Shown here piece after piece: positions 12,936 to 60,856 of a stretch of DNA of 64,000 nucleotides. Each line of letters opens with the position of its first letter. Positions within the stretch are counted from its first letter, which is position 1. Position numbers and translations under genes: made by a program. This DNA comes from Novosphingobium sp. EMRT-2. Lineage in GTDB: Bacteria; Pseudomonadota; Alphaproteobacteria; Sphingomonadales; Sphingomonadaceae. The stretch is from contig NZ_CP039697.1 in NCBI RefSeq assembly GCF_005145025.1, forward strand, positions 372,001-436,000. Reading direction: 5' to 3'. Below the pieces are notes generated by a model. That model saw only the letters and a list, made by a program, of their open reading frames with translations, was not told the origin of the DNA and searched no databases.

Positions 12936-12947
12936 GCGCCCCCGCGA

Positions 12948-14187: not shown

Positions 14188-14233
14188 CATTTCTACTTAG
14201 GGTCGCGCCAAGGCGGCACGGGGAGAGAGAGGA

Positions 14234-16362: not shown

Positions 16363-16463
16363 CGCGCGGAGAGATTCCGCTTTGGGGATAACCGCTCTCC
16401 GGGGTCGGCGACAAAGGACCGAACTCCGCCATAGCCGTCGTTCAAGGATCGAGAATCGCTTTT

Positions 16464-16518: not shown

Positions 16519-16558
16519 CGCCATTGACCAGAATCTCCACCACTGAAATGCTTTAGGG

Positions 16559-46042: not shown

Positions 46043-47203
46043 TTATCGCGCGGTGCTTGCCAGCCAGGCGAGTATCTCGTCGCGGTTCTCGTCAAGCCTG
46101 GGTGGCGGGGCATCGACCGAGGGTTCGCCCGGCACCATGCGGAACCCGACGCCCGGCAGGCGCACATCGCCGTCCAGCGGCAACCCCGGCACGGCGAGTG
46201 ACGCCAAGGCGCCCGGCCCGGCCAGCGCCGAAGCCTCGTCCACCCGGCGCACCACGCCGCACGGTATGCCGGCCGCGTTCATGCCGGCTTCCCATTCCAC
46301 CGCATCCCGCGTCGCGATCACGCCGGCCACTTCCGCCTTCATGGCATCGAAGTTCGCACGCCGCGCGTCGTCCGTCGCAAAACGCGCATCGCGCAGCCAT
46401 TCTTCCTTGCCCACGAAGCGGGCCAGGGCTTCGAACTGGTTCGGCTGCACCACGCCCAGGGAAATCTGACGGCCATCGCGCGCGACAAACAGCGACGCCG
46501 TGGGCAATCCGCTGTAGCCGGTGTTGCCCATGCGCGACATTGGCTGGCCGGTGACAAGATAGGGCGTCAGCGCAGACGTCATGAACGCAAGGCTGGCGTC
46601 GAACATCGACACATCGATATAGCTGCCGCCGCCGCCGCGTTCGCGCTGCATCAGGCCGGAGAGGATCGCCAGCGCGGCCGTCTGACCGGTCAGCGTATCC
46701 ACGATCGGGAACCCCACGCGAACGGGCGGATCGCCTTCCTCTCCGCTCAGCATCATCATTCCGCTGGTCGCCTGGACGATATTGTCGATCGCCGGCCAAT
46801 CGCGCTGGGGGCTATCCTGGCCATAGCCGGATACCGAGCAATAGACGATATCGGGCCGCAGTTCGCGCACCGCATCATAACCAAGCCCAAGCCGCGCAAT
46901 GACGCCCGGGCGGAAGTTCTCCAGCAGCACATCGCTGCGCGAAACGATGGCGCGGGCAATGGCCAGATCGGCTTCGTCCTTGAGATCGAGCGCGATCGAT
47001 TTCTTGCCCGCGTTGGCAGCGATGAAGGCGGGCGCCATGCCGTCGAAACGGCGATCCGAGCCGTAGGAACGGAACCCGTCGCCGCGTTTGGGCTCGATCT
47101 TTATCACCTCTGCCCCCATCTGCCGCAGCAAGTGGGATGCGTAAGGCCCGGCCATGACGTGGCTGAAATCGGCGATGCGGATGCCCGCAAGCGGCTTGGT
47201 CAT
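46043..47203 (-). CDS. Family III CoA-transferase (last gene of the TRAP/dehydratase operon)
   Basis: A protein of 386 residues with IADFSHVMAGPYASHLLRQ, a GAEVIKIEPKRGD nucleotide region, SGYGQDSPQRDW, the probable nucleophile Asp in FPIVDTLTGQTAAL, and a GGGGSYIDVSMFDA segment. It is a normal single-domain CaiB/BaiF enzyme. ATG 47203 overlaps the upstream stop (ATGA). As the third CoA-transferase unit in the operon it probably acts on a different acid, for example the product or a recycled carrier, than the fused protein at 50437 (inference). Confidence 0.9.
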   Translation of the reverse strand: MTKPLAGIRIADFSHVMAGPYASHLLRQMGAEVIKIEPKRGDGFRSYGSDRRFDGMAPAFIAANAGKKSIALDLKDEADLAIARAIVSRSDVLLENFRPGVIARLGLGYDAVRELRPDIVYCSVSGYGQDSPQRDWPAIDNIVQATSGMMMLSGEEGDPPVRVGFPIVDTLTGQTAALAILSGLMQRERGGGGSYIDVSMFDASLAFMTSALTPYLVTGQPMSRMGNTGYSGLPTASLFVARDGRQISLGVVQPNQFEALARFVGKEEWLRDARFATDDARRANFDAMKAEVAGVIATRDAVEWEAGMNAAGIPCGVVRRVDEASALAGPGALASLAVPGLPLDGDVRLPGVGFRMVPGEPSVDAPPPRLDENRDEILAWLASTAR

Positions 47204-48129
47204 GGTTTCTCCGGAAATTGCTTGCGAACGACGGTCCAGCCCGTTCCCGTGCAAAGACCGCAGGGATCGCCCGCGAACATCGCGCCGGCGCGCTTGCTGC
47301 CCTTCAACTGCCAATCAAGCCAGGCCACCCCGACGCGCGCATATTCGCCCCCGTTGACCAGCTGGTACGTGCCGCCATGCCCGGTCGGCAGGTTGCCGTA
47401 GAACACGGGGACGTGATCGATGCGGTTCACGTCGTCGCTGCCGTTGGGATAGGCGATATCGGTCGGCCCGCCCAGGATATAGGCAACGGGCGTATGCAGC
47501 TTGCGCAGATCATCCTTGGTCACGGGAACGCCGCTGATGCCGGTGTTCCCGCGGTTATAGACACCGCTGTTCATCACCATGACGGTCTTCACGCGCGGAT
47601 CCGCGCCTGCGACAATCGCCTGCAATCCGCCGCAACTATGCCCCATCACCGCGATGCGGGTCGTATCGATCCGCCCCTTGAACGGTCCCGCCCGGTCCGC
47701 GCGCACGGCCCAGTCGATCGCCGCGACCAGCTGCCCTGCGGTCGTTTCGTCCGGCGTCGGACGCGGCGGCGGGAACGCGACCGGTGGGCCATCGGGCAGC
47801 CGCTCCAGTGCGGGGCTTTCCACACCCGGCGCGCCGTTGGCGATCACGAAATAGCCATGGCTGGCGATCTCGCGCAGGAAATGGCTGGCGGAAAGCCCGT
47901 TGTTCTTGCACCCGCCGTTCCCCCACAGCACCAGCGGCAAAGGCTGGCGCGGGAGACGGGCGGGGCGGTAGATCGTGTAACCCGGCGCATCGGTGCGGCC
48001 TTCCGCGACCGCGGGCCAGGTGCCGGTACCCGCAGGCGCGCCGATAACCCCCGGCCCGTGCGGAGCGTCCGCCGCTTGCGCGGACGCCATCGTCGCGACC
48101 AGCCCCGCCAGGACGATCAACCGTTTCAT
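47200..48129 (-). CDS. Exported alpha/beta hydrolase
   Basis: A protein of 309 residues with a signal peptide (MKRLIVLAGLVATMASAQA). The hydrolase fold shows LVLWGNGGCKNNG as oxyanion segment, VMGHSCGGLQA as nucleophile elbow, acid near GGPTDIAYPNGSDD and a C-terminal His (TGHGGTYQ). It resembles small polyester-hydrolase or dienelactone-hydrolase-like secreted esterases. ATG 48129 follows GGGGC and overlaps the DctP stop. It would release an acid or alcohol in the periplasm for the TRAP transporter. Confidence 0.82.
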   Translation of the reverse strand: MKRLIVLAGLVATMASAQAADAPHGPGVIGAPAGTGTWPAVAEGRTDAPGYTIYRPARLPRQPLPLVLWGNGGCKNNGLSASHFLREIASHGYFVIANGAPGVESPALERLPDGPPVAFPPPRPTPDETTAGQLVAAIDWAVRADRAGPFKGRIDTTRIAVMGHSCGGLQAIVAGADPRVKTVMVMNSGVYNRGNTGISGVPVTKDDLRKLHTPVAYILGGPTDIAYPNGSDDVNRIDHVPVFYGNLPTGHGGTYQLVNGGEYARVGVAWLDWQLKGSKRAGAMFAGDPCGLCTGTGWTVVRKQFPEKP

Positions 48130-49157
48130 GATTTGCCCCCACATTCGATCCGGTCTCGGCCCCGCACGGCGGCGCGCGCGGTGCGAAACGCTCTCATTCC
48201 GTCAAGGCCAAAACGCGCGAGCGCCCGGGCATTGGCTTCGGAATCGCGCAGATAAAGCGCATCGAAACGCGCCTGTTCGGACGGAGAAACGCCGCTGATC
48301 ACGACATGCCGCGCGCGCGCCTCCTCCATGCCCTTGTCCAGCGCGACACGGATTTCCCGCGCCAGCGCCGCTTCCCATACGGGTTGGGCTTCGGTCAGGA
48401 TGGCGCGTTCCTCATCCGTCAGGCTGTTCCAGCGCGCAACCCCCATTGCCCTGGCCGGATAGGCACCGCGGGGGACAGCCAGCGTGTTGTAATACCGGGC
48501 CACTTCCGCAAAATGCAAAGCCTTGAAGGTATCGCCGGGCGCGATCACGCCATCGATCACGCCCTTGGCCATCGACGAATAGACATCCGCCATGGGCATG
48601 TTGACGGGATCGGCTCCAAGCGATTCCAGCACCGTCAGCAATTCCGTCGGCGCCCGCAAACGCAGGCCGCGCAGATCGGCAAGGCTGCGCACCTGCCGGT
48701 TTGTCGTAACGATGCCAGCCAGCGATCCGCCCTGAACCGCCAGAACCTTGAGGCCCTGAAGCTCGCGGCCGATTTCTGGCTCCGCAGCGGCGATGCAGCG
48801 ATAGAGCGCAACCTGCGATTCCACGCTATCCGCGCCGCTGTAGAAGCCGGTCTGGATGCGCAGCAGATGGGTGCCGCCGCGCGCGTAGATCGGCGTTATC
48901 AACCCCACGTCCGCCACGCCGTGACGGAGTTCCTCCATCGACATATCCGATGAAAGCAGCGCGCCCGACCAGCTGGGACGAATCCGGATACGGCCGTGCG
49001 AGCGCTGCTCCACGAACCCCATCCACGCCTGATCCGCCTTGCTGAACGGATGGTTCGGGCTGTACGGCGTGGCATAGGTCAGCTCGGTCACACCCGGCGA
49101 AGCCGGGCGCGCGCAGGCGCTGATCAGCATTGCCAGGGCCAGCACCAGGCGTTTCAC
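48126..49157 (-). CDS. dctP: TRAP transporter substrate-binding lipoprotein
   Basis: A protein of 343 residues. The N-terminus has a lipobox (MLISACARP), so this binding protein is probably membrane-anchored. The DctP fold follows: LTYATPYSPNHPFSKADQAW, the RIRIRPSWSGALLSS segment, and SLADLRGLRLRAPTELL, the region with the carboxylate-binding Arg. The start is GTG 49157, overlapping the upstream stop as GTGA. With DctQ and DctM in the same operon it completes a sodium- or proton-coupled importer for an organic acid. Confidence 0.9.
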   Translation of the reverse strand: MKRLVLALAMLISACARPASPGVTELTYATPYSPNHPFSKADQAWMGFVEQRSHGRIRIRPSWSGALLSSDMSMEELRHGVADVGLITPIYARGGTHLLRIQTGFYSGADSVESQVALYRCIAAAEPEIGRELQGLKVLAVQGGSLAGIVTTNRQVRSLADLRGLRLRAPTELLTVLESLGADPVNMPMADVYSSMAKGVIDGVIAPGDTFKALHFAEVARYYNTLAVPRGAYPARAMGVARWNSLTDEERAILTEAQPVWEAALAREIRVALDKGMEEARARHVVISGVSPSEQARFDALYLRDSEANARALARFGLDGMRAFRTARAAVRGRDRIECGGKS

Positions 49158-50440
49158 GCAAGCCCCCGCGCGACCAGGAAATCGGCAACCAGCGATACCA
49201 TGCGGTCGTGATTCCAGTTCTTGGCATCGACCATGTCCGCGTCGATCGAAAGGACGGGGACGCCCGCCGCCTCCAGCGATTGCGCGGTGATCTTCGTGCC
49301 CGATTGCGAGAGCCGGTTGTCCGGCGGCAACAGCACGACGCAGGCATCGATCCCGCAGCGCTCCGCCTCGCTGGTCATCCAGCCGTTCATCCACGGCGGA
49401 AGGTGCAACACCTCGTTCATCGAGCAGATACGGCTGGCCAGCGCGTCCATCGGGCGTCCATGCAACTCGCGGATATACTGCGGCCCGGCGAACGGCATGT
49501 ACATGGACCAGACGAACACGGCGCCGAGCCGCTCTTCCAGCGCCTGGTAGAAGCCCGGATCGTGCCACACCCCGGCCCCGATCCACATCAACCGGATCTT
49601 TTCGTGCGCGGCGGTGCCCGCCCCGCTGGCGATGCGCTCCATCACTTCATCGCGGAAGCGACGAGCATGGTCCACCGCCCAGTCCGATCCCCGGTGCCAT
49701 TGCGGGATCATGGTGTTAGGCATCTGTTCGGCGATGGATACCGGGCACGGACGCGCGCGGCCGATCGCCTGCGCGGCCTCCCAGATATACCCTTCCTGTT
49801 CGTTGATCCGCTCCATCAGGTGATGGAGCCTGGCTTCGTCGAACTTGCGGCCCGTGCGATTTTCCAGCAGCGCGATAAGGTCGCGCATCTCGGAAACCAT
49901 CAGCGCGATGCGGTCGGCATCGTAGATTTCCTGCCAGTCGTTGCGGGAATGCGCGAACCAGCGCGGGTCCTTGTGCTCCCACGCGGGTGCCTCCATCGGG
50001 AAGAACTCGCTGCCCAGCGCCTCGGCCCACTGGCCGAAGACGTGCTGGATGCAATCGCAGGTCATCCGCGCGACCAGCACGGTCGGCTTGGGCAACCCGC
50101 CCCACGGCGCGGACTTGGGATCGTTGGCCAGTGTGCAAGCAAGGCCCAACGAACAATACTTGCAGCTGTTCTCCGGAAAGCCGTGGCGCGCCATCACTTC
50201 GAAGTACTGGTTCGAAAGCTGCTTCGCCGAAATATAGGCCGACCACCACTGGTTGGTGATGATCGGGATGTCCATCACGTGAAAGATCTCGTGCGGCGTA
50301 TCGGCCTGGACGATTGCGAAAGGTTCGCCTTCATCCACCACCCGGCGCTTCAGATCGATGCCGAACTGCTTCTGGTAGGCGTTGGCGGCGGCGGTGCAGG
50401 CTAGGTCCTTGCGGCTGCGCTGTCCGGTGGCTTGACTCAT
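49154..50440 (-). CDS. 2-hydroxyacyl-CoA dehydratase / benzoyl-CoA reductase family subunit
   Basis: A protein of 428 residues of the HgdB/BcrC-type family. Candidate iron-sulfur ligands cluster in NSCKYCSLGLACTLA (Cys93, Cys96, Cys102) and MTCDCIQ (Cys128, Cys130). Later segments MWIGAGVWHDPGFYQALEE and VVLLPPDNRLSQSGTK fit the family's second half. Known members remove water from 2-hydroxyacyl-CoA (or reduce benzoyl-CoA) by ketyl-radical chemistry and need an ATP-driven activator protein. None is encoded nearby. ATG 50440 overlaps the preceding stop. Its partner is probably the product of 52518-53411. Confidence 0.82.
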   Translation of the reverse strand: MSQATGQRSRKDLACTAAANAYQKQFGIDLKRRVVDEGEPFAIVQADTPHEIFHVMDIPIITNQWWSAYISAKQLSNQYFEVMARHGFPENSCKYCSLGLACTLANDPKSAPWGGLPKPTVLVARMTCDCIQHVFGQWAEALGSEFFPMEAPAWEHKDPRWFAHSRNDWQEIYDADRIALMVSEMRDLIALLENRTGRKFDEARLHHLMERINEQEGYIWEAAQAIGRARPCPVSIAEQMPNTMIPQWHRGSDWAVDHARRFRDEVMERIASGAGTAAHEKIRLMWIGAGVWHDPGFYQALEERLGAVFVWSMYMPFAGPQYIRELHGRPMDALASRICSMNEVLHLPPWMNGWMTSEAERCGIDACVVLLPPDNRLSQSGTKITAQSLEAAGVPVLSIDADMVDAKNWNHDRMVSLVADFLVARGLA

Positions 50441-52521
50441 TGGAATACTCCTGCCGCTTCGAGTTCGGCGATGCGGGCTTCGGACAGGCCGCAAAGGTCA
50501 CGGGCGATGGCGTGTACGTGTTCGCCCATGCGCGGTGCGCGGAAGGGCGCGGGCCGATCCCGGGAGAACAGGATCGGCGTGGCGATATGGCCAAATGGCC
50601 CCAGCAGCGGATGGTCCAGCGTCATCAGCGCACCCCGCCCCGCCAGCTGCGGATCGGCATCGATCATGTCCTGGCAATCCTGCACCACGCCGCACGCGAT
50701 GCCGGCCGCCTGCAATTCCGCCGCGATCGCCTGATCTTCCCGCGCGGACGTCCATGCCGCAATGTCGGTGCCGGCGATCGCCGCCAGCCGCGCCCGGTCC
50801 TGTTCCCCAAAAACGGTGATCGCCACCCACCGGTCGTCGCCCAGCGCCGGGAACACATCCTGGAACGGGACCCGCGGATCGGCGTTGCCCGCCCGTTGGG
50901 GGCGTTCGCCACGCTTGGCTGCCGCGAGATAGTCCCGCATCTGCTGCACGCAGATTTCGTACATGGAGGCATCGATATGGCAGCCGAGGCCGGTTTCCCG
51001 CCGATGCTGGAGCGCCGCCGCGACCGAACCCGCCATCACGAAAGGCACGATCACGTCGCCATAGGGGACTGCCCCCGGGATCACCGGATCGCGATCGGGA
51101 TAGCCTGTCAGGAAGGTGCGCCCGGAAAGCGCACCGCCGGTGCCGTCCACGCCCCATTCCTGCGCCAGCGGGCCGGTCTGGCCGAATACGCTGCCCGATA
51201 CCATGACGATACCGGGGTTGCGCGCCGCCAGCGCATCGTAGTCGAGGCCCAGCTTCTTCATCGTACCGGGCGAGAAGTTTTCGACGACGACGTCGGCCCA
51301 ATCGATCAGCGGATCGATCAGCTCGCGCGCCTCCGGCTTCTTCATGTTCAAGGAAACACTGCGCTTGGATGAATTGAGATGCGCGAACCAGGGCTTGTCG
51401 TCCCAGTTGCCGGCCTGCGATGCCGAAACCTGCACGTCCAGCCGCGCCAGATCGGGCCGCGTGCGGCTTTCGATCTTCACCACCTCGGCGCCGAGATCGC
51501 CCAGCGTCTTGGTCGTGATCGAACCCACCAGCGCCCAGGCGAAATCCAGCACGCGCACGCCCGCAAGCGGACCGGAGCGAGCGCCGGCATGGACGGCGGG
51601 CGCCGCTGGCGTGGTCCCCGGACGGAACGTCGCAAAGCGGTCGGGCAATCCCGACGGCGTGTCGAAGAAGGAGCGCGCAGCGAGATGGGGATCGGCCAGC
51701 ACATCCGACGGCTCGTTCGCCACGCACGCGTTGATGCCGCGCCGCAGCCCCTCGATGGCGATTTCCCGCTTCGTGCGCGAACGGAAGAACGCGTCGATCG
51801 CGGCTTCCCAGATCGCCCGCGTTTCCGCTGGCAGCGTCGAGCGGTTGTACGCCAGCCAGTCCGTGCCGCGCAGCGGGTTTGGCATGCCGGCATCGTCGAT
51901 CCAGTCGGACAGCGCCTGGTTGGCGGGCGCGCCCAGCCGCCCCGTCATCAGCGAATGGAAGCACCAGCCGTCCGCCAGCCGCCAGATCGCCCGGACGGTG
52001 GCCTGGCCATAGGCCAGCGCCCCGCCGACGCGGACCAGCTTGCGCCGGTCGAATTGCCAGCACAGCACGCCGTTGAAATTGCGACTGAACGCGACCTGCT
52101 GGATCGAGACATCGACATGCTGGCCCTTGCCGTGCGTGCCGCGCGCATAATGCGCGGCCATCGCGCCCGACGCCGCAACCATGTCGGCGTGGAACGTGCA
52201 GGCGTCGCCCGCCTCTTTCACCGGCGGCAGTCCCGGCTCTCCGGTAACGCGCAAGGCGCCGCCCATTGCCGAGGCAACCAGTTCCCCACCCTTCCAGCCG
52301 GAGCGCGGGCCGCCGGACCCGAACGGCGTGACCGATACGTGAATGGCCGCGTCCGGCACGACAACGCCGGCCAGTCCTTCCAGCCCGATGTCATCGATCA
52401 CGAACGACGCGCCTTCGACCGCCCCGCCCAGCTCGGCCCCCAGCGAGGTCAGGAATCGCGCCAGAGGACGCTCCCCCATGCCGCCGAGCACGGCGACGCG
52501 ATGGCCAGCGAGCGGCTTCAT
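50437..52521 (-). CDS. Double-length family III CoA-transferase (two fused domains)
   Basis: A protein of 694 residues with two complete CaiB/BaiF domains. The N-domain (about 1-335) is more divergent (KPLAGHRVAVLGGMGERPLA) but keeps an Asp in FHADMVAASGA and THGKGQHVDVSIQQ. The C-domain (about 345-694) is canonical (LAGVRVLDFAWALVG, GAEVVKIES, FGQTGPLAQEWGV) with the probable nucleophile Asp in VPYGDVIVPF. Family III enzymes are interlocked dimers, so this chain may fold as an intramolecular dimer. ATG 52521 overlaps the dehydratase-like stop. Confidence 0.9.
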   Translation of the reverse strand: MKPLAGHRVAVLGGMGERPLARFLTSLGAELGGAVEGASFVIDDIGLEGLAGVVVPDAAIHVSVTPFGSGGPRSGWKGGELVASAMGGALRVTGEPGLPPVKEAGDACTFHADMVAASGAMAAHYARGTHGKGQHVDVSIQQVAFSRNFNGVLCWQFDRRKLVRVGGALAYGQATVRAIWRLADGWCFHSLMTGRLGAPANQALSDWIDDAGMPNPLRGTDWLAYNRSTLPAETRAIWEAAIDAFFRSRTKREIAIEGLRRGINACVANEPSDVLADPHLAARSFFDTPSGLPDRFATFRPGTTPAAPAVHAGARSGPLAGVRVLDFAWALVGSITTKTLGDLGAEVVKIESRTRPDLARLDVQVSASQAGNWDDKPWFAHLNSSKRSVSLNMKKPEARELIDPLIDWADVVVENFSPGTMKKLGLDYDALAARNPGIVMVSGSVFGQTGPLAQEWGVDGTGGALSGRTFLTGYPDRDPVIPGAVPYGDVIVPFVMAGSVAAALQHRRETGLGCHIDASMYEICVQQMRDYLAAAKRGERPQRAGNADPRVPFQDVFPALGDDRWVAITVFGEQDRARLAAIAGTDIAAWTSAREDQAIAAELQAAGIACGVVQDCQDMIDADPQLAGRGALMTLDHPLLGPFGHIATPILFSRDRPAPFRAPRMGEHVHAIARDLCGLSEARIAELEAAGVFQ

Positions 52522-53411
52522 GCTGCGCCTCCCTGCAGGAAAGCAGCGATCTCGGCATCCACGCCATCGTTCGCGCGCCAATCACGCCGCGTCAGGATCA
52601 GCGCGGGAATATCGATCCTTGCCAGCACGTCGCGCTGCGCGGGCAGATGCCAGACGCGGGCATCGTCCTCTTCGGCGAACCACAGCACCGCCGCCAATGC
52701 GCCGCATTCGTCCGCCTGCGCTTCCAGCGCCTGCGCGCGATCGAAAAACGCCCGCACATCCGCGCGCCTCGCGTGAAGCTGACGAGCAAGCGCGGCGAAC
52801 GGATCGCCAGTGCCTTCCTCGACCGGCGGCCCCGGGTCCGCCCACGCATCGCCCAGCGTTTCACCGGCCGCGATCCAGCCGGCGCGTTCGACCATGCCAT
52901 GCAGCCGGCGATCCGGGGGCGGCGTGCCCGCGATCAGGCAGACCCGCCCGGGCTGCGCACCCGCCGCAGCAGTCGCATTCGCCCGGCGAACGTTGGTTTC
53001 CGCGATGCCCCGCTCAAGCGCGATCTCACCGACGCCAAGACGATCGGCCAGCTTCCGCACGCTGGCAACCATGTGCTGTGCGCTGCTGGCACGTCCGATC
53101 TTGGCGACATCGAAGATCAACGGTTCGGGGCCGCCGACCTTGCCCAGCCGGCGCAGCTCGCTGATGTAGTAGTAAAGGCGCTGTGCCCCATCGTCGGCAC
53201 GCGAAAACACCACGGCATCCAGGTGGTCGAACCGGCCATCCAGCCAGTCTTGCAGGACGGAATAGGTCCAGCGCGGAAACTTGCTTTCCAGCCAGCGGTC
53301 TGCGGCGGGCGTTTCGCGGTCGATGTCCCAGGGAAGCAAACCGGCATGCACGCCTGTGGCGGCAAGCAGGTCTTGCGGCAAATCCGGGCCGAGTGATGCA
53401 ATCATGGTCAT
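52518..53411 (-). CDS. Second 2-hydroxyacyl-CoA dehydratase-family subunit (short, cysteine-poor)
   Basis: A protein of 297 residues with family segments VVFSRADDGAQRLYYYISEL and LPAQRDVLARIDIPALILTRRDW. The cysteines that other subunits place before the DD/RLY motif and in the C-terminal half are absent; only two cysteines (GRVCLIAG, DECGALA) are visible. It is shorter than usual (about 380-430). It may be a structural partner of the larger subunit or bind no cluster. ATG 53411 overlaps the DctM stop. Confidence 0.72.
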   Translation of the reverse strand: MTMIASLGPDLPQDLLAATGVHAGLLPWDIDRETPAADRWLESKFPRWTYSVLQDWLDGRFDHLDAVVFSRADDGAQRLYYYISELRRLGKVGGPEPLIFDVAKIGRASSAQHMVASVRKLADRLGVGEIALERGIAETNVRRANATAAAGAQPGRVCLIAGTPPPDRRLHGMVERAGWIAAGETLGDAWADPGPPVEEGTGDPFAALARQLHARRADVRAFFDRAQALEAQADECGALAAVLWFAEEDDARVWHLPAQRDVLARIDIPALILTRRDWRANDGVDAEIAAFLQGGAA

Positions 53412-54715
53412 TGTCCGAAAAGGCCCGGCAGCCACAGGGCCATCGCGGGAAACAGGATCAGAAGAAGAAGATGGACCAGGTCGCTGGCTAGAAACGGCAT
53501 CACCCCCTTGAAGATGCGGTTGATGCTGACGTCCTTGGCGACGCCCTGGATCACGTAGAGATTCATGCCCAGTGGAGGATGAACGAAGCCGATTTCCATC
53601 GCGCGGGTGATGAAGATGCCAAACCAGATCGGCGACATGCCCACGCTTTCCACCACGGGCAAAAGGATCGGCGTGGTCAACAGCATCAGCGCCAGGCCAT
53701 CGAGCACGGAGCCCAGCAGAAGCAGCAGCCCCGCCACGACGATCAGCGTCGGAATCGTTCCCAGGGCAAGGCCGGTCACCCAATGGCCGACGGCGTCGGT
53801 AAGGCCCGTCACGCTGATGAACGTCGAGAACACAAGCGCGCCGATGATGACCAGAAAGATCAGACCGCTGGTCCGCAGCGTTTCGGAAAAGGCGCGGAAC
53901 AGCACTTCCCGCGTCAGGCGACGACGCCAGGCCGTGATTGCCAGAGCACCAACCGTGCCGATCGACGAGGCTTCGGACGGGCTGAACCACCCCAGCACGA
54001 TCCCGCCCAGCACAAGGCACAACAACCCGAGCATGTCCGCGATGCGCAGCATGGCCTGCCCGCGTTCGCGCCAGGTCGCCCGCTCGCTCGCCGGCGCGAT
54101 CGAAGGCCGCCAGCGGACCAGCAACCAGACGACAAGGCAATAGAACAGCATCTGCGAGATGCCGGGAATCAGCGTTGCCGTGAACAGCTTCCCCACGGAC
54201 TGTTCCGCGATGATGCCATAGACAATCAGCGCACCGGACGGCGGAAGCATCTGGCCCAGCGTGCCCCCGGCCGCGACCGTTCCCGTGGCGAGCGCGTCCG
54301 AATAGCCGCGCTGGCGCATTTCCGGCAGGGCCACCAACCCGATCGTGGCGGCGGTGGCAAGGCTCGATCCGTTGATCGCACCAAACCCCGCGCACCCGCC
54401 GATCGAGGCATAGGCAAGCCCGCCACGTCTGTGCCCGACCAGCTTGGCCGCGGCATCGAACAGGTCGCGGCTGGCATTGGCCGAAAAGAACAGATGCGCC
54501 ATCAGCATGAACAGCGGCAGCGTGCCCAGTTCGTAGCGCGTCAACGTTTCCACCACGATCACGCCGGCCTTGATCAGCGCGGGTTCGAAGCCCAGCGCCA
54601 CGATCAACCCGCCGGCGCCGACAAGCCCCAGCGACACGCCGATCGGCACACCCGAAATCAGCAACGCGAACAGCAGGACAAGGCCGATCAGGCCGGTTTC
54701 AGGCGTGGCGAACAT
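53408..54715 (-). CDS. dctM: TRAP transporter large permease
   Basis: A protein of 435 residues with 12 or so hydrophobic segments typical of DctM: GLIGLVLLFALLISGVPIGVSL, PLFMLMAHLFF, and late IGFVHPPLGMNLYVIQGVAKDV, the conserved family signature. ATG 54715 shares its A with the DctQ stop. It forms the ion-coupled transport path together with DctQ in the inner membrane; the substrate is probably a carboxylic acid released by the operon's hydrolases. Confidence 0.93.
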   Translation of the reverse strand: MFATPETGLIGLVLLFALLISGVPIGVSLGLVGAGGLIVALGFEPALIKAGVIVVETLTRYELGTLPLFMLMAHLFFSANASRDLFDAAAKLVGHRRGGLAYASIGGCAGFGAINGSSLATAATIGLVALPEMRQRGYSDALATGTVAAGGTLGQMLPPSGALIVYGIIAEQSVGKLFTATLIPGISQMLFYCLVVWLLVRWRPSIAPASERATWRERGQAMLRIADMLGLLCLVLGGIVLGWFSPSEASSIGTVGALAITAWRRRLTREVLFRAFSETLRTSGLIFLVIIGALVFSTFISVTGLTDAVGHWVTGLALGTIPTLIVVAGLLLLLGSVLDGLALMLLTTPILLPVVESVGMSPIWFGIFITRAMEIGFVHPPLGMNLYVIQGVAKDVSINRIFKGVMPFLASDLVHLLLLILFPAMALWLPGLFGQ

Positions 54716-55164
54716 CAGCGCTTGCGCTCCACCAGTTGACGCGCAAGCAGGACAAGCACGACGACAAGACCCGCATTGAGGAACATCCTCAGCCAGCGCC
54801 ACGGCACGCCGAGCAGTTCGCTCACTTCCTGGCTGCCCCACAGATCGCTGGCGAGCCACGCGGACCCGCAAAGAAGGACGGCATAGAACGCCATCGTCAG
54901 CAATAGCGAAAGGCGTTCGACGAGATGCGCTCCGCCGGGTTTCAACCGGTCCAGCACAAGGTGAACGCGTGCGTGATTGCGCGCCAGCGTTGCGGAAACG
55001 AGCGCCAGCGTCCCGGCTACCAGCACGCCCACCTGCACAAGCTCGATCGCGCCTTTCAGCGGCAGGCCGGTGTGGCGGCCGATCACGGACAACAGATTGA
55101 GCCCGGCCGCCGCGATCAGCGCGGTGCCGCCGGTCCAGATCATGATGCGCGCAAGAACGTTCAT
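54715..55164 (-). CDS. dctQ: TRAP transporter small permease
   Basis: A protein of 149 residues with four predicted membrane helices (WTGGTALIAAAGLNLLSVI; ELVQVGVLVAGTLALVSATL; MAFYAVLLCGSAWLASDL; FLNAGLVVVLVLLARQLV). The size and topology are those of DctQ. The start overlaps the CapA-like stop by ATGA, and its stop overlaps the DctM start by one base. Confidence 0.88.
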   Translation of the reverse strand: MNVLARIMIWTGGTALIAAAGLNLLSVIGRHTGLPLKGAIELVQVGVLVAGTLALVSATLARNHARVHLVLDRLKPGGAHLVERLSLLLTMAFYAVLLCGSAWLASDLWGSQEVSELLGVPWRWLRMFLNAGLVVVLVLLARQLVERKR

Positions 55165-56294
55165 GCGGCTACCTCGCGCACGCGCCCATCGGCATCGATC
55201 CGGATGTCGGGCATCCCGGCATCGCGCGTGATGCCAGCCACATAGGCGCGTATATCCGCCGCCCGATCCGGCGGCGCCAGAACCGGCCGCCCCGGCGCTT
55301 CGACATCGACCGGGATGATCGCCGGCACGATGGTGCCATCCGCGCCCCACTCTATCCGTCCCAGGAACGCGTTCACCGCCTGCGGGTGAAACGGCGCCAG
55401 CGTATAGGCCGGATCGGGTTCGAAACCGAACAGCGCCTTGCGCCGCTGCGCCCATTCGCGGCGGGCCGGATGATCCTGCGCCGGGCTGAGCGCGCGGGTG
55501 ACGACACACCCGTTGCCAAGGCCGTGAAAGATCGGCTTCCCGCGATAGAATTCGATGCCACGCACGATATGCGCATGATGGCCGATCACGACATCCGCCC
55601 CGGCGTCGATCGCCGCATGCGACACGGCGCGTTCGTAGGGGGCCAGCCGCGCGGGCGTATGGACGATACCCTTGTGCAGCGCCACCAGCACCAGATCGGC
55701 CACGGTGCGCGCGCGGGCAATGTCCTCGCGCAGGATGGCCACCGCCGCGTCGGTCAGCGCGACGAGGTTCGCCGCGGGCGCGACCGGGCTTCCGTCCGCC
55801 GTTGCGATCGGCAACCACGCGCAGCCAGCCCGGTCCGCGCCGGCCCAGGCGCTTTCGGGACCAACGCAATTGTAGCTGAGCAACGCAATGCGCCGACCGC
55901 TACGGTCCACCACGGCCGGCTCGCGCGCTTCGGCCAGCGTCAGCCCCGCCCCGGCATGGGCGATGCCGGGCGCATCAAGCCCGGCAATGGTATCGGCTAT
56001 GCCTTCGGCACCGCAGTCGGCGATATGATTGCCGGCAAGGCTGACCATGGAGAACCCCGCCCCGGCGATCGCCGCGATATTTTCGGGCGGCGCGCCGGGC
56101 GCCGGGACATCCCCTTTCATCTCGGCTCCGCGCGCGGTGTGTGGCACTTCCAGATGGCCGATGGCGAGATCGGCGGCGCGAACCGCAGGCGCGATTCCGT
56201 CGAGCCAGTAGGGTGCGTCCGGTTCATCAAGAACGAGATCGCCCGCCAGCACGATGGAGATCGCCTCCCAGTTCACGCCGCCTTCCCCCCTCAT
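55161..56294 (-). CDS. CapA/PgsA-type metallophosphatase-fold protein
   Basis: A protein of 377 residues without a signal peptide or membrane helix. Family motifs are IVLAGDLVLDEPD at the start, IGHLEVPHT, VSLAGNHIADCG, VALHKGIVH and VIGHHAHIVRGIEFYRGKPIFHGLGN, the metal-binding GHHAH/GLGN pair of CapA (calcineurin-like) proteins. Characterised CapA proteins act in poly-gamma-glutamate export or as a peptide-linked hydrolase; here a catabolic hydrolase is more likely. ATG 56294 is used, but GTG 56273 after GGGGGGAAGG has a better ribosome site. It starts 8 bp after the TBDR stop. Confidence 0.85.
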   Translation of the reverse strand: MRGEGGVNWEAISIVLAGDLVLDEPDAPYWLDGIAPAVRAADLAIGHLEVPHTARGAEMKGDVPAPGAPPENIAAIAGAGFSMVSLAGNHIADCGAEGIADTIAGLDAPGIAHAGAGLTLAEAREPAVVDRSGRRIALLSYNCVGPESAWAGADRAGCAWLPIATADGSPVAPAANLVALTDAAVAILREDIARARTVADLVLVALHKGIVHTPARLAPYERAVSHAAIDAGADVVIGHHAHIVRGIEFYRGKPIFHGLGNGCVVTRALSPAQDHPARREWAQRRKALFGFEPDPAYTLAPFHPQAVNAFLGRIEWGADGTIVPAIIPVDVEAPGRPVLAPPDRAADIRAYVAGITRDAGMPDIRIDADGRVREVAA

Positions 56295-56302
56295 CGCGAT
56301 TG

Positions 56303-58987
56303 TCAGAACGCCTTGCGGACGCTGATCGCGAACAGCCGGCCGATCGGATCGGCGGCCGTGGCGTCATACCCGCCGCTGCCGTTGCCGCTGGGCGCCAGGT
56401 TCACATAGGGCGGCTTCTGATCGAACGCGTTGCGCATTTCAAAGCCCAGCGTCATGCCCTTGTCAAAGAACCCCGTCGCCTTCTGATCGCCGATGCGCCA
56501 GCTGATCGAAAGATCGACCGGCGTGAAGCTCCCCACCGACTGCACGGGCACCGCGAGGTTGTTCTTGTACCCCCCGACGTGCGTGATCAACACACGCGCG
56601 CTGACCGGGCCGTGATCCCACAGGATGCTCGCGCGCGCCTTGAACTTGAGCGGATTGAAAATCACGTTCAGGCGATCGACCAGCGGCGCCGTGGGCGTGA
56701 CGGCGACGCGATATTTGGTGAGATAGGTTCCCGACACGTTGAACGTCAGCGTATCCCTGTCGGAAACGTCCTTGGTCCAGGTGCCGGTAAAATCGATGCC
56801 CCGGGTAATCGAAACGCCAAGGTTCTGGCTGCGCCCGTCGACGAACAGGGTCACGTTCGCGGGGTTGCCGCCGGGAAACGATCCGCTGGCCAGCGCCACG
56901 CCCTGCGCCAGCAACTGCTGAACCCGGGCGGCGGCGGCCGCATCGCGAAGGATGATATTGGTGCCGGCGTACTGCGCCTCGTTACCGAGAATGGTCAGGT
57001 TCGACAGGTTGGCGAGCACCTGGTTGCGATAGTTCACATCCCAGTACGTGATGCCGAAGTGCAGCGTCGGGGTTGGATCGAAATCGGCGCCGATGGACCA
57101 GGTGGTTGCCGTTTCGGGCTTCAGGTTAAGGTTGGGGCCGGACAGCGCATAGCCCTGCAACGGCGCTCCGCCGGCCGGGTTCTGATAGCTCTGGCCGAAC
57201 AGGTTGTTGGAGTTGCCGTAGATTTCGGGGATCGTCGGCGCACGGAACGACGTGCCATAGCTGCCGCGCAGTTTCAGACCCCGCACCGGCTCCCAATTGA
57301 TCCCGAACTTGGGATTGGTGGTGCCGCCGACATCGCTGTACTTGTCGTAACGCACCGCGGCGTTGAGTTCGAGCCGTTCAAACCCGGGCATCGCGTTGGC
57401 CGCACCGAAGACCGGCACGAACAGTTCGCCATAGACCGAATCGACCTTGCGTCCGAAATTGCGGAACACGATCGGCGTGGTCGGAGCGCCGCGCGCCGAT
57501 CCCAGCCCCACGGTGAAGTCCTGCCGTTCGTAACCGCCCGCCAGCTTCACTTCGCCACCGGGCAGCGCGAACAGCGGCCCGTTGATGCGCCCTTCGTACG
57601 TCTTCAACCGCCCGTTGGTCGGTGCGAGGAATATCTGGTTTGCAAGGACAGCGCGGACGGCCGCGCTCGTGCGCCCCAGGCCATAAGGATCGAACGCGGT
57701 GGCCGGATCGCTGCTGGCCAGCGCGGCCGTCAGCGCGCCATTGTTCAGCCCAAAGTAGGAGCCGGAGAAATCGTGCGTCTTGCCATAGCCGAACAGTGCC
57801 TCGACCTCCCAGTTGTGCGGCAGCTTCGCCTTGATGCCGGGCGTGATCTGCCAGCTTTCGGCATAGCCGAACGAATCGTTGGTCGGCAGGTCGTTGCGGA
57901 AGTTGTAGTCCAGCGTGTAGCTGGTGCCGGTGAAGCCGGCCGGGCGCACGAAGAACGCGTTGGTCTGCGGAACCGTTATGCGGGCGTTGGTAAACCCGGA
58001 CTTCCGGTAGAAATCGCGCTTGGAATAGAACCCGTCGTAAAAGACGCTCAACCAGTCGGTAAGGTCGTACCGCCCGGTGCTGTTCACGGAATCATACTTC
58101 TGCCGCGGCGCCAAGTCCTGGTTGGTCAGTTCGTCGCACTTGTTGAGCGTCCCCGCGACAAGCGCACCCGCGGTCGCCTGCGTCACGCCCGCCGCCGGTA
58201 TCGCGTAAGTTGTGCCGTTCGCGTTGATATTGCCCGGCGCACAGCGCGCGATGCGGTAATCCGCGCCACCGAACGGAGTCTGGTTGTTCGTGAAGAACGA
58301 ACGGTTGTCACCGCTCAGGTTGGAGCGTTCGACATGTTCGTAAGCCACCATGATCTGGCCGCGCTCGAACACCTTGCCCAGCGCCGCACCCAGCGAATAT
58401 TCGTGAAAATCGCCGCGACCGCCGATGCCCGCACGCGCGAACACCTCGCCTCCATCCAGCGACCGGCGCGGAATGAGGTTCACCACGCCGGCAACCGCAT
58501 CGGAACCGTAGATCGCCGATGCGCCGTCCGCCACGACCTCGACCCGTTCCACGCCCAGCGAAGGCAGGACGGAAGGATCGATCGATCGGCTGTTGTTCGT
58601 CACCCGGTGGCCATCGATCATCACCAGCGTCGCATAGGGGCCGATGCCGCGCAGGTTGACCGAGTTGCCGTAAGTGATGTTGCCACTGCCGCCGGACTGG
58701 CCGCGCGAATTCTCCGAAACACCCAGATCGAATACCTGCGGTATCTCCTTGACCATGCGATCGACCGTCACCGCGCTGGACGCCTCGATTTCCTTCCGCC
58801 CCAGTGTGGTGACGGTGGAACCCACCGGCGCCTCGCCGCGCACGCGGCTGCCAGTGACGATGATTTCGGCGCTGCTCGGTTCGTCCTGCGCGGCGTCCTG
58901 CGCCATCGCGGGCACCGCCGCGATCGCCAGGCCACAACTGCCGATACAGAACGCTGTCCGCAAACGCGTGATGTTATTGCCCTTCAT
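56303..58987 (-). CDS. TonB-dependent outer-membrane receptor (TRAP/dehydratase operon)
   Basis: A protein of 894 residues with a signal peptide (ending VPAMAQD), IIVTGSRVRGEAPVGS TonB-box region, plug (VTVDRMVKEIPQVFDLG, LRGIGPYATLVMIDGHRV, VEVVADGASAIYGSDAVAGVVN) and a barrel ending in FAISVRKAF. The YGSDAVAGV-type plug is common in TBDRs for oligosaccharides, peptides or aromatic esters. ATG 58987 follows AAGGAG. It is second in the eleven-gene operon and probably brings the intact ester to the periplasm. Confidence 0.93.
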   Translation of the reverse strand: MKGNNITRLRTAFCIGSCGLAIAAVPAMAQDAAQDEPSSAEIIVTGSRVRGEAPVGSTVTTLGRKEIEASSAVTVDRMVKEIPQVFDLGVSENSRGQSGGSGNITYGNSVNLRGIGPYATLVMIDGHRVTNNSRSIDPSVLPSLGVERVEVVADGASAIYGSDAVAGVVNLIPRRSLDGGEVFARAGIGGRGDFHEYSLGAALGKVFERGQIMVAYEHVERSNLSGDNRSFFTNNQTPFGGADYRIARCAPGNINANGTTYAIPAAGVTQATAGALVAGTLNKCDELTNQDLAPRQKYDSVNSTGRYDLTDWLSVFYDGFYSKRDFYRKSGFTNARITVPQTNAFFVRPAGFTGTSYTLDYNFRNDLPTNDSFGYAESWQITPGIKAKLPHNWEVEALFGYGKTHDFSGSYFGLNNGALTAALASSDPATAFDPYGLGRTSAAVRAVLANQIFLAPTNGRLKTYEGRINGPLFALPGGEVKLAGGYERQDFTVGLGSARGAPTTPIVFRNFGRKVDSVYGELFVPVFGAANAMPGFERLELNAAVRYDKYSDVGGTTNPKFGINWEPVRGLKLRGSYGTSFRAPTIPEIYGNSNNLFGQSYQNPAGGAPLQGYALSGPNLNLKPETATTWSIGADFDPTPTLHFGITYWDVNYRNQVLANLSNLTILGNEAQYAGTNIILRDAAAAARVQQLLAQGVALASGSFPGGNPANVTLFVDGRSQNLGVSITRGIDFTGTWTKDVSDRDTLTFNVSGTYLTKYRVAVTPTAPLVDRLNVIFNPLKFKARASILWDHGPVSARVLITHVGGYKNNLAVPVQSVGSFTPVDLSISWRIGDQKATGFFDKGMTLGFEMRNAFDQKPPYVNLAPSGNGSGGYDATAADPIGRLFAISVRKAF

Positions 58988-59041
58988 GTTGACTTACTCC
59001 TTCCCCGCGGCCGGCTGCGCGGCCTTTCCTTCCAATGATGC

Positions 59042-60766
59042 TCAATCGGCGACTGGCAGGTCGATCCACGACGTCCCGCGCCCGCCGCGTTCGACGGCGA
59101 TGACGGGCGCTGGCGTCTGCATGATTTGCTTGAGATTGCGCTGGCGCGGATCCGCGCCGGCGATCGTCACGCGCAACCGCGCGCCGGCCGGCACGATCCG
59201 TGAAACCGGTGTAAGGTCGATCGCCAGATCGGCCTGCTGCCCCACCGGCAGCGGCGCCACGTCGCGCCGCAGGCCGGAATGCCACGGCAGGCCCAGCGTG
59301 TTGTAAGGGGCTGTGGCCAGCTTGCGATGCGACAGCGCCAGCCGGCCGAACGAAACGACCTCGACCTTGCCGTCAGCGGCCACTTCATCCACATAGACGA
59401 AAACGTTGGCATCCGGCTTGTCGGCCGAAACCTTCAGGCGCACCACCGGATAGCCGACCAGCTTCATCGCACGCGCCAAAGGTGCGCTGGTGTAGCTCAG
59501 TCCCTTGTCATCCATGGGCCTGGCCCAGAACGCGAAGTAGTCCGGGTCGGGCAGGTCATAGCGCACCGTGAAGCGATCGGTGCCGCGATCGGCCGGCGCG
59601 GAAGCCAGCACGCCATCGTTGACCGACCGGGCAGAGCCGCTTCTGCCCCCGGCCAGGAACCATGAGACGGGCTTGACGCCCTCGCCCGGCAAGGACCGGG
59701 AACGGACATACCCGCCCTTCCCCTCCAGGCCCTCCACCCAGTAGGTCGCGCGCGGCTCGCGCTCGATGCCATTGTCGACGCCCTTGAGGTAATGGTCGAA
59801 GTAGCGGCGCACTTCGCCGGTGAAATCGAACCCCGGCGGCGGCACGCAATGACTTCCCGGCCCCGCGAGGAACTTCGCGCCGGGGAGATTGGCCGCGCTC
59901 AGAATCGATTGCGCGGTTGGCTCGTCCTGCCAGTTGCTCCAGAAGTAGGTGGCGATGCCGGCCCGGTGAATTGCGCCCATGTAGTTGTAAACGCTGGCTT
60001 CGTTCCAGAAGGCATTGCCGGTCAGCGGCGAAACGCTGTCACGATAGGGCATGCCATACCACAGGGCCGCCATCGGCGTGTTGGCCGCATGCTGGGCGAC
60101 GGCGGCCTTTAATTGCACGCCGTCGGCGTCGGCATCGACCGGCACGCTCGCCAGATCCTCGCTCAGCGGCTCGTCCGGCCGCGTGTTGAACTGCGCGGTT
60201 ATGCCGCCTCGCTTGACGAACGCGTACTTGTCGAGATCCGAGGCGCCGATGAAAACCGCCTTGAGCGATGGCGGCGCCGTGGTGGCGGTATGGAACGTCG
60301 CCCCGCCCAGATACGAGCAGCCGATCATGCCGACCTTGCCCGTGGAGAACGGCTGGCGCGCCAGCCATTCCACCAGGTCATACCCATCCCGCGCTTCCGT
60401 CCGGTCCTGGAAACCGTGGCGGCTGCCGAAAGACGCGCCCTTGCCACGGATGTCGGCCACGGCGACGACATAGCCCGCCGCGATGAGCGACCGGAGCGCC
60501 ATCCGATCATTCAACGCGACCTCGTTGAGCTTGCCGTCCTGTCCCACGAAGCGGGCACGGTATGGCGTGAATACGAAAATCACCGGGAGCGGGGCACTTT
60601 CCACCCCGCCGCCGCCCGCCGGACGATAGATGTTCACGGCAAGGCGTGTGCCATCGCGAACGGGCACATAAAGCGAGCTGCGCTGTACGTCAGGATAGTC
60701 GGCAGCGTTGCCGGGCACCGCCATCGCGGCTGCTGCCGCCACCGCCACCCACCGAATCGCCTGCAT
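59042..60766 (-). CDS. Exported CocE/NonD family hydrolase (X-Pro dipeptidyl-peptidase fold)
   Basis: A protein of 574 residues with a signal peptide (MQAIRWVAVAAAAAMAVPGNAAD). The alpha/beta hydrolase domain (GTRLAVNIYRPAG, nucleophile elbow MIGCSYLGGAT, late acid, His in GPGSHC) is followed by a jelly-roll domain (YFAFWARPMDDKGLSYTS), as in cocaine esterase. ATG 60766 follows GGAGAGG; a longer frame start at 60820 would run through an operator. It leads the operon; two palindromes lie between it and the divergent GntR gene. It probably cleaves an ester or amide in the periplasm. Confidence 0.9.
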   Translation of the reverse strand: MQAIRWVAVAAAAAMAVPGNAADYPDVQRSSLYVPVRDGTRLAVNIYRPAGGGGVESAPLPVIFVFTPYRARFVGQDGKLNEVALNDRMALRSLIAAGYVVAVADIRGKGASFGSRHGFQDRTEARDGYDLVEWLARQPFSTGKVGMIGCSYLGGATFHTATTAPPSLKAVFIGASDLDKYAFVKRGGITAQFNTRPDEPLSEDLASVPVDADADGVQLKAAVAQHAANTPMAALWYGMPYRDSVSPLTGNAFWNEASVYNYMGAIHRAGIATYFWSNWQDEPTAQSILSAANLPGAKFLAGPGSHCVPPPGFDFTGEVRRYFDHYLKGVDNGIEREPRATYWVEGLEGKGGYVRSRSLPGEGVKPVSWFLAGGRSGSARSVNDGVLASAPADRGTDRFTVRYDLPDPDYFAFWARPMDDKGLSYTSAPLARAMKLVGYPVVRLKVSADKPDANVFVYVDEVAADGKVEVVSFGRLALSHRKLATAPYNTLGLPWHSGLRRDVAPLPVGQQADLAIDLTPVSRIVPAGARLRVTIAGADPRQRNLKQIMQTPAPVIAVERGGRGTSWIDLPVAD

Positions 60767-60776
60767 GGCGCCTCTC

Positions 60777-60794
60777 CAAATTGTTGACAATTTG
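60777..60794. promoter_or_regulatory. GntR/FCD operator, proximal site
   Basis: CAAATTGTTGACAATTTG, perfect 8-bp arms around TG, 11 bp before the CocE start codon. Confidence 0.7.
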
Positions 60795-60834: not shown

Positions 60835-60856
60835 ACAATATTGTTGACAATATTGT
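60835..60856. promoter_or_regulatory. GntR/FCD operator, distal site
   Basis: Arms ACAATATTGT and ACAATATTGT around TG; each arm is itself palindromic. The common TTGTTGACAA core lies exactly 60 bp from the core of the proximal site. Both fall in the 112-bp divergent promoter region, and a TTGACA inside each could serve as a -35 element for the GntR gene. Confidence 0.7.

Follow-up and report, generated by a model that had tools for sequence, protein, structure and literature searches.

A predicted ester-catabolic operon of Novosphingobium sp. EMRT-2 with a dehydratase-like subunit pair that may work without radical activation

Novosphingobium sp. EMRT-2 carries a compact eleven-gene operon encoding hydrolases, a complete TRAP transporter, CoA-transferases and two subunits, hA and hB, which resemble 2-hydroxyacyl-CoA dehydratases. 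The reading we lean towards, with slightly better than even confidence, is an aerobic ester-catabolic operon, likeliest for a plant aromatic (hydroxycinnamate-type or related hydroxy-acid) ester, in which the dehydratase-like pair does without ATP-driven radical activation. The observations behind this reading are gene content, conservation, a regulator gene with its sites, protein families, the loss of cluster ligands and an activator search without a match. Members of the 2-hydroxyacyl-CoA dehydratase/benzoyl-CoA reductase family are known from anaerobes, where they carry out radical chemistry at low potential. All coordinates given below refer to the window, i.e. the whole analysed stretch of 64,000 nucleotides of contig NZ_CP039697.1.

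Operon structure and gene content

The operon fills positions 46043-60766 with eleven genes, all on the minus strand. In transcription order, the junctions measure +54 (CocE-TBDR), +8, −4, −1, −4, −4, −4, −4, −4 and −4 nt; eight of the ten are thus overlaps of 4 or 1 nt, which bears out the tight packing described in a first-pass annotation of this DNA. Scans for promoters and terminators gave no useful result.

The first gene encodes a CocE/NonD (S15) hydrolase of 574 aa (59042..60766; TIGR00976 232 bits, cut-off 66.3; PF02129/PF08530) with cocaine esterase as top PDB matches (E 1e-14), followed by a TonB-dependent receptor (TBDR) of 894 aa (56303..58987; PF00593, PF07715) and a CapA/PGA_cap protein of 377 aa (55161..56294; PF09587 187 bits), which matches PDB entry 8gq9, named poly-gamma-glutamate synthesis protein (E 6e-24). 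The TRAP transporter is complete, comprising the small permease DctQ (54715..55164; PF04290), whose gene overlaps that of CapA by 4 nt, the large permease DctM (53408..54715; PF06808 336 bits; TIGR00786 above cut-off) and the solute-binding protein DctP with a GTG start (48126..49157; PF03480 105 bits; NF037995 above cut-off). Between DctM and DctP are encoded the short, beta-like subunit hA of 297 aa (52518..53411; PF06050 (HGD-D) 30.0 bits, cut-off 28.4), the two-domain class III (CaiB) CoA-transferase CaiB2 of 694 aa (50437..52521) and the long, alpha-like subunit hB of 428 aa (49154..50440; PF06050 170 bits), the CaiB2 gene overlapping the genes of both subunits by 4 nt. The last two genes encode Est, a PETase/lipase-like alpha/beta hydrolase (47200..48129; PF12740 29.3 bits, cut-off 28; PDB match 2fx5 lipase, E 8e-20), and the single-domain CoA-transferase CaiB1 of 386 aa (46043..47203). 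The CoA_transf_3 domain of class III CoA-transferases (PF02515) scored above its cut-off in both CaiB2 (361 bits, two stretches) and CaiB1 (358 bits), and the second half of CaiB2 matched formyl-CoA and benzylsuccinate CoA-transferases in the PDB. Judged by eye, the N-termini of the CocE hydrolase and of Est are signal-peptide-like.

From this gene set we infer a route in which the TonB receptor would import the ester, CocE and the PETase-like hydrolase would cleave it in the periplasm (locations read by eye), DctPQM would carry the free acid into the cell, CaiB1 and CaiB2 would load it onto CoA, and an hA/hB heterodimer would then transform the resulting CoA thioester. The ester/organic-acid character assigned to the operon on first pass is supported.

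Divergent regulator and operator-like palindromes

An FCD-type GntR regulator is encoded divergently on the plus strand (60879..61544, ATG at 60879; PF07729 103 bits and PF00392 28.1 bits, both scored on a shorter gene call, 60981-61544). The operator-like palindrome ATTGTTGACAAT is located at 60780..60791 (+), and an identical second copy lies within ACAATATTGTTGACAATATTGT at 60840..60851 (+). These are the sole two exact matches in the EMRT-2 genome, both in the divergent promoter. With at most one mismatch, 15 matches were obtained across the neighbourhoods, 12 of them clearly and one (locus L047) probably upstream of operon genes or the GntR gene, and two elsewhere. The regulator gene and its two palindromes had been absent from the first-pass annotation. 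The dedicated GntR protein may release the operon from repression in response to the acid or its CoA ester. With its compact layout and a regulator of its own, the operon is easy to test.

Distribution and conservation

The operon core was found again in Sphingomonadales, Caulobacterales and Steroidobacter as well as in MAGs, and some named strains carry it on megaplasmids. Among 61 genome sets, many of them cut by contig ends and including two loci of one MAG (L055, L058) as well as near-identical strains (L005, L006), hB was counted in 59, CaiB2 in 54, DctP in 53, CaiB1 in 51, DctM in 50, DctQ in 46, hA in 44, CapA in 42, TBDR in 36, CocE in 35, GntR in 33 and Est in 32. These numbers are undercounts, as genes were called by our own codon-score caller, trained on the operon genes, which missed genes in some loci; blast matches below set length and identity limits were left out. 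Searches at three taxonomic levels were positive in 36 of 149 genomes for the genus (20 window-type and 16 fused-type by open-frame length, 15 of the latter inspected), 13 of 296 for the order (ten at ≥77% identity, three at 36-41%) and 4 of 398 for the phylum. The megaplasmid matches and the patchy distribution are points in favour of horizontal transfer. Source names among the 120 listed of 2233 matches include '2-hydroxyacyl-CoA dehydratase' and 'benzoyl-CoA reductase subunit'.

Neighbouring genes

Outside the operon, the window holds two associated minus-strand genes. One encodes a LacI-type regulator (61577..62578; near the operon in 14 of 61 genome sets), the type being assigned by eye and from the annotation of its relative in Novosphingobium sp. 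ES2-1; the other encodes a cytochrome P450 (62620..63801; 16 of 61 sets; PDB P450 matches from E 5e-45). Further neighbours in the 61 sets (flanks exceeded 10 kb in 30 of them) were MmgE/PrpD (14), aldehyde dehydrogenase (8), PobA (7), Ech (5) and tannase (5). Ech, p-hydroxycinnamoyl-CoA hydratase/lyase, was identified in locus L032 with NF006588 (454 bits, cut-off 276). It is present in 28 of 33 genomes, and only five of these have it within 30 kb of hB; in EMRT-2 it is found on another contig. Of 33 genomes searched, 24 carry a diheme-like gene, which in 19 of them is no more than 30 kb away from hB. PobA and tannase were not detected in the window or the flanking 18-20 kb retrieved on each side. 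Together, the neighbours suggest plant-aromatic esters as substrates, aromatic neighbours not being universal.

The PETase-like hydrolase, with PF12740 barely above its cut-off, would also fit an operon for synthetic-polyester or other xenobiotic esters (PET/BHET-like), in which the hydrolases would be central and the pair would handle glycolate, lactate or another simple hydroxy acid. The BHET-hydrolase model NF051441 gave just 24 bits (cut-off 520), and aromatic-acid genes occur among the neighbours in a subset of genomes, both of which speak against polyesters and leave this explanation very improbable.

Three further leads from the neighbourhoods concern other compounds. Glucuronate catabolism, to which uxaC and manD adjoining the operon in Novosphingobium sp. 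ES2-1 pointed, was rejected, since none of the other neighbourhoods that we examined matched. A glycyl-radical/stilbene link (L066) was likewise rejected, as it occurred with a distant paralogue only and was absent from window-type neighbourhoods. A hint at quinate came from QuiC/AroE-like genes, clear in locus L017 only, with one further QuiC match of 31%.

Fold and cluster ligands of the dehydratase-like pair

The predicted structures of hB (pLDDT 86.9) and hA (pLDDT 90.2) are those of the BzdNO/HadBC family, so the family assignment made for both subunits on first pass held by fold, and together they represent an HGD-D-fold alpha/beta pair. Foldseek matched hB to 8s02_C (BzdNO; E 2e-17, TMq 0.78), 9g87_A (MbdO; TMq 0.80) and 3o3o_A (HadB; TMq 0.78), and hA to 6eno (E 2e-12), 8s02_B (TMq 0.79) and 3o3n_B (TMq 0.82). 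Against the NCBIfam equivalogs, hB stayed below both cut-offs, with 54 bits for HadB (cut-off 750) and 41 for BzdO (449), and hA had no match at E ≤ 0.01.

According to PMC11971306, the cluster ligands are Cys95/128/380 in BzdO and six Cys in BzdN, and Tyr97, Tyr298 and Gln274 of BzdO bind the thioester oxygen. In hB, C93 aligns with Cys95, Y95 with Tyr97, Y314 with Tyr298 and A289 with Gln274. The third canonical ligand position is N375, aligned with Cys380 of BzdO and the equivalent Cys of HadB; relative to the MbdO Cys it is aligned in one alignment and one column off in another. Across 58 orthologues this position holds Asn in 52, Ser in five and a gap in one. Q64 stands where HadB and MbdO have Glu. 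The long subunit keeps two cluster ligands, C93 and C128, the alignment of the latter being clean with MbdO only and shifted in HadB and BzdO, and lacks the three-Cys set of an alpha-subunit [4Fe-4S] cluster. Compared with the canonical ligands, C96, C102 and C130 are additional, and all five Cys (C93/C96/C102/C128/C130) are near-invariant. The comparison of hB with YjiM alone was poor (probability 4).

For hA, YjiM was the sole canonical sequence used. Its Cys residues that we take to be cluster ligands align with P46, D73 and E248 (or D249 in another alignment), and Cys is absent from these three positions in 48 orthologues; a three-Cys beta-subunit cluster site is thus missing. No Cys is invariant among 121 short-subunit sequences, and the six-Cys double-cubane set of the BzdN type was not recovered (no residue-by-residue alignment with BzdN). 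Two Cys are nearly invariant, at position 84 (114 of 121; Ser in the window) and position 158 (115 of 121), and both stand apart from the aligned ligand positions.

The loss of ligands, strongest in hA and in the fused paralogues, and the position of the CaiB2 gene between the subunit genes with its short overlaps would be in line with a non-catalytic or accessory complex that binds or channels CoA esters, e.g. as partner of CaiB2, with catalysis left to CaiB and the P450 encoded nearby. We consider this improbable in view of the conservation of hB, which is 67-90% identical across orders (near-identical L005 and L006 left out), and of its five near-invariant Cys, which suggest an active centre. 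Selection points the same way. In comparisons with six relatives, we estimated dN/dS for hB, hA, DctM and CapA, four of the eleven operon genes, with synonymous sites partly near saturation. It was about 0.06-0.19 for hB and 0.17-0.34 for hA; the hB ratio was below that of DctM for five of the six relatives and below that of orthologous CapA for all six.

Activator search and mode of action

TIGR00241, representing the HgdC/BcrD-type activator, had no match in 27 distinct genomes, 24 with the window-type long subunit and three with paralogues only, the completeness of genomes reached through loci being unstated. The same search was positive in 6 of 14 controls. Since the genome search missed the weak short subunit hA with PF06050, its sensitivity is limited. 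Three PF01869 matches in the EMRT-2 genome were rejected as activators, being by eye two identical sugar-kinase-like copies and one hydantoinase-like protein. The oxygen-sensitive radical chemistry that the first-pass annotation associated with the family, naming an activator search as a check, is therefore unsupported: no activator was found, the hA ligand positions are devoid of Cys, and the hB ligands are incomplete or rearranged.

Canonical dehydration of the FldABC/HadABC type would have CaiB move CoA to a 2-hydroxy acid, e.g. an ester-derived aryl-lactate, which the pair would dehydrate radically to an enoyl- or cinnamoyl-CoA via an unrecognised electron donor, perhaps at low oxygen. The hA-CaiB-hB gene trio, presumably like FldA/FldBC, the fold match to HadBC, the retained C93 and C128, and the Ech (5/61) and PobA (7/61) neighbours, which would suit a cinnamoyl-CoA product, all agree with it. 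We nevertheless judge it unlikely, as hA has no Cys at its ligand positions, hB has neither the third Cys nor the Glu, and similar operons hold fused paralogues, in which Cys is missing at the long-subunit ligand positions in 17 of 17. Moreover, none of the 27 genomes yielded the activator, though the family clusters require one according to the review PMC11574389.

We return to the preferred reading, an operon whose pair is independent of an activator. Because hB lacks the third ligand and the Glu and has the extra C96, C102 and C130, and because hA is without ligands, ATP-driven one-electron activation is, as far as sequence comparison can tell, probably not used. A point against this is that a functional cluster, supplied by an unrecognised donor, could sit in the five-Cys pattern of hB. 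The pair may be an oxygen-tolerant lyase or dehydratase-type enzyme acting on an acyl-CoA, its hB subunit housing a re-ligated site for a metal or cluster. As a wider proposal, held tentatively and at a little less than even confidence, aerobic proteobacteria may have turned the radical scaffold into a CoA-thioester enzyme that tolerates oxygen and needs no activator, in two grades, one split with a re-ligated five-Cys hB site and one fused with all long-subunit ligand Cys replaced, both in TRAP/TBDR/CaiB catabolic operons. If true, this activator-less, ligand-losing aerobic branch would show a radical-enzyme scaffold re-used under oxygen. It would also give sphingomonad proteins bearing the source names quoted above a different, testable role, and would caution against reading anaerobic pathways from such names.

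Comparison with known systems

That no characterised pathway with this gene set was known on first pass agrees with the literature searched (most subscription papers and all preprints lay outside), in which no description was found. HadABC ((R)-2-hydroxyisocaproyl-CoA dehydratase) and FldABC (phenyllactyl-CoA dehydratase) share with hA/hB the alpha/beta heterodimer fold and a CaiB CoA-transferase encoded with the pair. In contrast to them, the present operon comes without a found activator, has Asn/Ser as third alpha ligand and an hA that is devoid of Cys at its ligand positions and falls 76 residues short of chain 3o3m_B, belongs to hosts regarded as aerobes, and adds TRAP, TBDR and hydrolase genes. 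The ATP-dependent benzoyl-CoA reductases BzdNOPQ and MbdONPQ are the closest solved relatives of hB by sequence and fold, with the two thioester-binding tyrosines aligned; the operon differs from them in having no found activator, Asn/Ser at the Cys380 position and no invariant Cys in hA. The double-cubane cluster protein DCCP (6eno) is the best fold match of hA by E-value, whereas hA has no invariant Cys and the operon no reductase partner. CaiB2, with two CaiB stretches in one chain, presumably resembles DddD-like two-domain class III CoA-transferases but is encoded between dehydratase-like genes. As a whole, the operon corresponds to what we take to be a general type of TRAP-linked organic-acid uptake operon with FCD-GntR, comprising DctPQM, a hydrolase, a CoA-transferase and a divergent GntR gene, to which it adds the dehydratase-like pair and CapA.

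Operon structure and family assignment

All eleven genes that the first-pass annotation had grouped in one operon (CocE, TBDR, CapA, DctQ, DctM, hA, CaiB2, hB, DctP, Est and CaiB1) were found at the proposed positions on the minus strand, with transcription running from 60766 to 46043, and their family assignments were borne out by Pfam and NCBIfam. Seven of the junctions are 4-nt overlaps and one is a 1-nt overlap; the remaining two are gaps of 8 and 54 nt. The short subunit of the 2-hydroxyacyl-CoA dehydratase-like pair, hA (297 aa), passed the HGD-D (PF06050) sequence cut-off narrowly (30.0 vs. 28.4 bits), and its fold is settled by the predicted structure (mean pLDDT 90.2): all 20 structure matches at E ≤ 0.001 were chains of DCCP, BzdNO, HadBC and MbdONPQ entries. 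For the predicted structure of the long subunit hB (428 aa; pLDDT 86.9), the first matches were BzdO, MbdO and HadB chains. From these matches, hA and hB resemble the beta and the alpha partner, respectively, within a single heterodimer family.

A divergently oriented regulator gene of the FCD-GntR type (ATG at 60879) is located upstream of CocE; the domain scan used a shorter version of it (60981-61544). The gap between both genes contains two copies of ATTGTTGACAAT, one within a perfect palindrome with 10-bp arms. These copies are the only exact matches in the own genome, where two further sites occur at one mismatch. Within the window, 9 matches at ≤2 mismatches were counted vs. a shuffle mean of 1.36, with both palindromes counted on both strands. 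Across the neighbourhoods, 15 matches were obtained at ≤1 mismatch, and 12 of them clearly precede operon genes or GntR (two in the window and one each in loci L024, L026, L036, L041, L042, L075, L078, L084, L114 and L126); the match in L047 probably does so too, those in L061 and L092 do not. A single promoter region and a dedicated regulator agree with the eleven genes forming one unit.

Conservation and distribution

One scan of GTDB contigs yielded 59 loci. The recurrent gene order CapA-DctQ-DctM-hA-CaiB2-hB-DctP-(Est)-CaiB1 is present in Sphingomonadales, Asticcacaulis, Steroidobacter, a Parvularcula MAG and several other MAGs, with variable placement of TBDR, CocE and Est between loci. 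No DctP and CaiB1 matches followed hB in two Phenylobacterium loci (L059 and L060), no DctP match was present in L055 and L058, and no CaiB2 match in L040 and L046. Identity of hB across loci is 67-90% when L063, which is partial, and L005 and L006, which are near-identical, are set aside. Against six relatives, hB gives dN/dS values of about 0.06-0.19 and hA values of 0.17-0.34, in keeping with purifying selection on both subunits. Separately, the hB orthologue at G791:C23:231811-233088 carries one internal TAG and is possibly a pseudogene or a sequencing error, and genome G789 carries two hB copies of the split, window-type form, on contigs C2 and C4.

Seven plasmid records had any hB match, five of them at 79-90% identity (Novosphingobium sp. 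THN1, ES2-1 and PP1Y, and Croceicoccus marinus twice). The contig that carries the window, C3, has a 3,756-bp stretch in two identical copies (9216-12971 and 746465-750220) about 737 kb apart, suggesting that it is a circular secondary replicon of ~737 kb whose assembled ends overlap.

Activase search and cluster ligands

According to a review (PMC11574389), the family depends on an activase driven by ATP, and each subunit needs one [4Fe-4S] cluster held by three Cys. A profile search with TIGR00241, the HgdC/BcrD-type activase model, matched none of 24 genomes with window-type hB, completeness figures lacking for the locus-derived ones, and none of three further genomes carrying paralogues only, beside which G000 (the own genome) and G302 were rerun in a second round; 6 of 14 control genomes matched. 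The sensitivity of this search is bounded, as a like search with PF06050 overlooked the weakly scoring hA.

The cluster ligands of BzdO are given as Cys95, Cys128 and Cys380 in PMC11971306. In hB, C93 aligns with BzdO Cys95, and C128 with the Cys of MbdO that resembles a second ligand; against HadB and BzdO, the latter alignment is shifted. Cys380 of BzdO and the matching Cys of HadB both fall at hB position 375; relative to the MbdO Cys it was aligned in one comparison and one column off in another. Among 58 orthologues this position is Asn in 52 and Ser in five, with one gap. Q64 of hB occupies the place of a Glu in HadB and MbdO. Of the 58 orthologues, 56 keep C93, C96, C102 and C128 (two gaps) and 55 keep C130 (two gaps, one Gly); none of the five varies among 121 sequences, made up of the query and the 120 matches listed out of 2233. 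The five-Cys site of window-type hB may bind zinc, or a cluster that is either fully ligated or catalytically functional.

No Cys of hA is invariant among 121 sequences; the near-invariant ones are at positions 84 (114/121; Ser in the window) and 158 (115/121). Aligned with E. coli YjiM, the ligand-like positions of hA are P46, D73 and, depending on the alignment, E248 or D249, and none of 48 orthologues has a Cys there.

A fused hA-hB single chain of 766-811 aa is encoded in L065, L067, L131-L144 and L146, in most of them within its own conserved TRAP/CaiB operon comprising MarR, DctQMP, CaiB, the fused gene, usually two more CaiB and CapA, and often TBDR and CocE. None of the 17 chains examined keeps any of the five hB Cys (the residues there are E/D, S, A, S and P/A/T), and all have a gap at position 375; a Cys at hA position 73 occurs in a single chain.

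The reading of hA/hB as an oxygen-sensitive radical dehydratase was thus not upheld, since TIGR00241 was not found in the 27 genomes searched, the ligand Cys of hA are absent and hB position 375 is Asn or Ser. Together with the replacements in the fused form, these observations suggest that the branch has abandoned canonical cluster chemistry.

A distant hA-hB pair in L066 (genome G214, same family and a presumed aerobe) adjoins a glycyl-radical-enzyme homologue (14189-16582; PFL-like 522 bits, Gly_radical 82 bits), and an apparent second homologue, recognized by eye, starts at 19254. L066 thereby presents a second radical-enzyme family in a presumed aerobe. The same pair also adjoins an RPE65/carotenoid-cleavage-type oxygenase (6551-8074; PF03055, 437 bits), lignostilbene-dioxygenase-like by eye.

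Neighbourhood and proposed pathway

A gene for a diheme c-type-like protein with two CXXCH motifs (by eye) was present in 24 of 33 genomes searched and lay within 30 kb of hB in 19 of these, which strongly links it to the operon. In the own genome it lies right of the window together with a gene for a 261-aa partner (L071:4761-7060), and at the thresholds applied neither protein matched any Pfam or NCBIfam family. MmgE/PrpD, a membrane protein and a second CapA (L071:7120-10639) form a group recurring beside the operon. In the own genome, these three genes and the diheme-like one are found 4.8-10.6 kb beyond the right end of the window. Among 61 genome sets, with flanks >10 kb in 30, the neighbours counted were P450 (16), the membrane protein (15), LacI, MmgE/PrpD and the second CapA (14 each), aldehyde dehydrogenase (8), PobA (7), Ech (5) and tannase (5). 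One member each was tested for Ech (NF006588, 454 bits), PobA (TIGR02360, 612 bits) and tannase (PF07519, 308 bits); the own-genome Ech is on a different contig from the operon. These neighbours point to plant-aromatic esters as the probable substrates. Hydantoinase-like and DUF917-like gene groups, recognized by eye, lie to the left of the window on its replicon (L070:1516-4951 and 8243-13175).

With order and subcellular locations taken from family knowledge, esters would be imported by TBDR and cleaved in the periplasm by CocE and the PETase-like hydrolase Est; the released acid would be taken up by the TRAP transporter, loaded with CoA by CaiB1/CaiB2 and converted as CoA thioester by hA/hB to a product entering ordinary aromatic or acyl-CoA catabolism. 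By analogy with the biochemistry of FldABC, and given the Ech and PobA neighbours, one possibility would be that rosmarinate-type esters release 2-hydroxy acids such as aryl-lactates, which would then enter a cinnamoyl-CoA pathway.

No earlier description of this operon was found in the literature searched. The pair is not of a wholly new kind; it is a new form within a known fold family, and the operon around it is a new context for that family.
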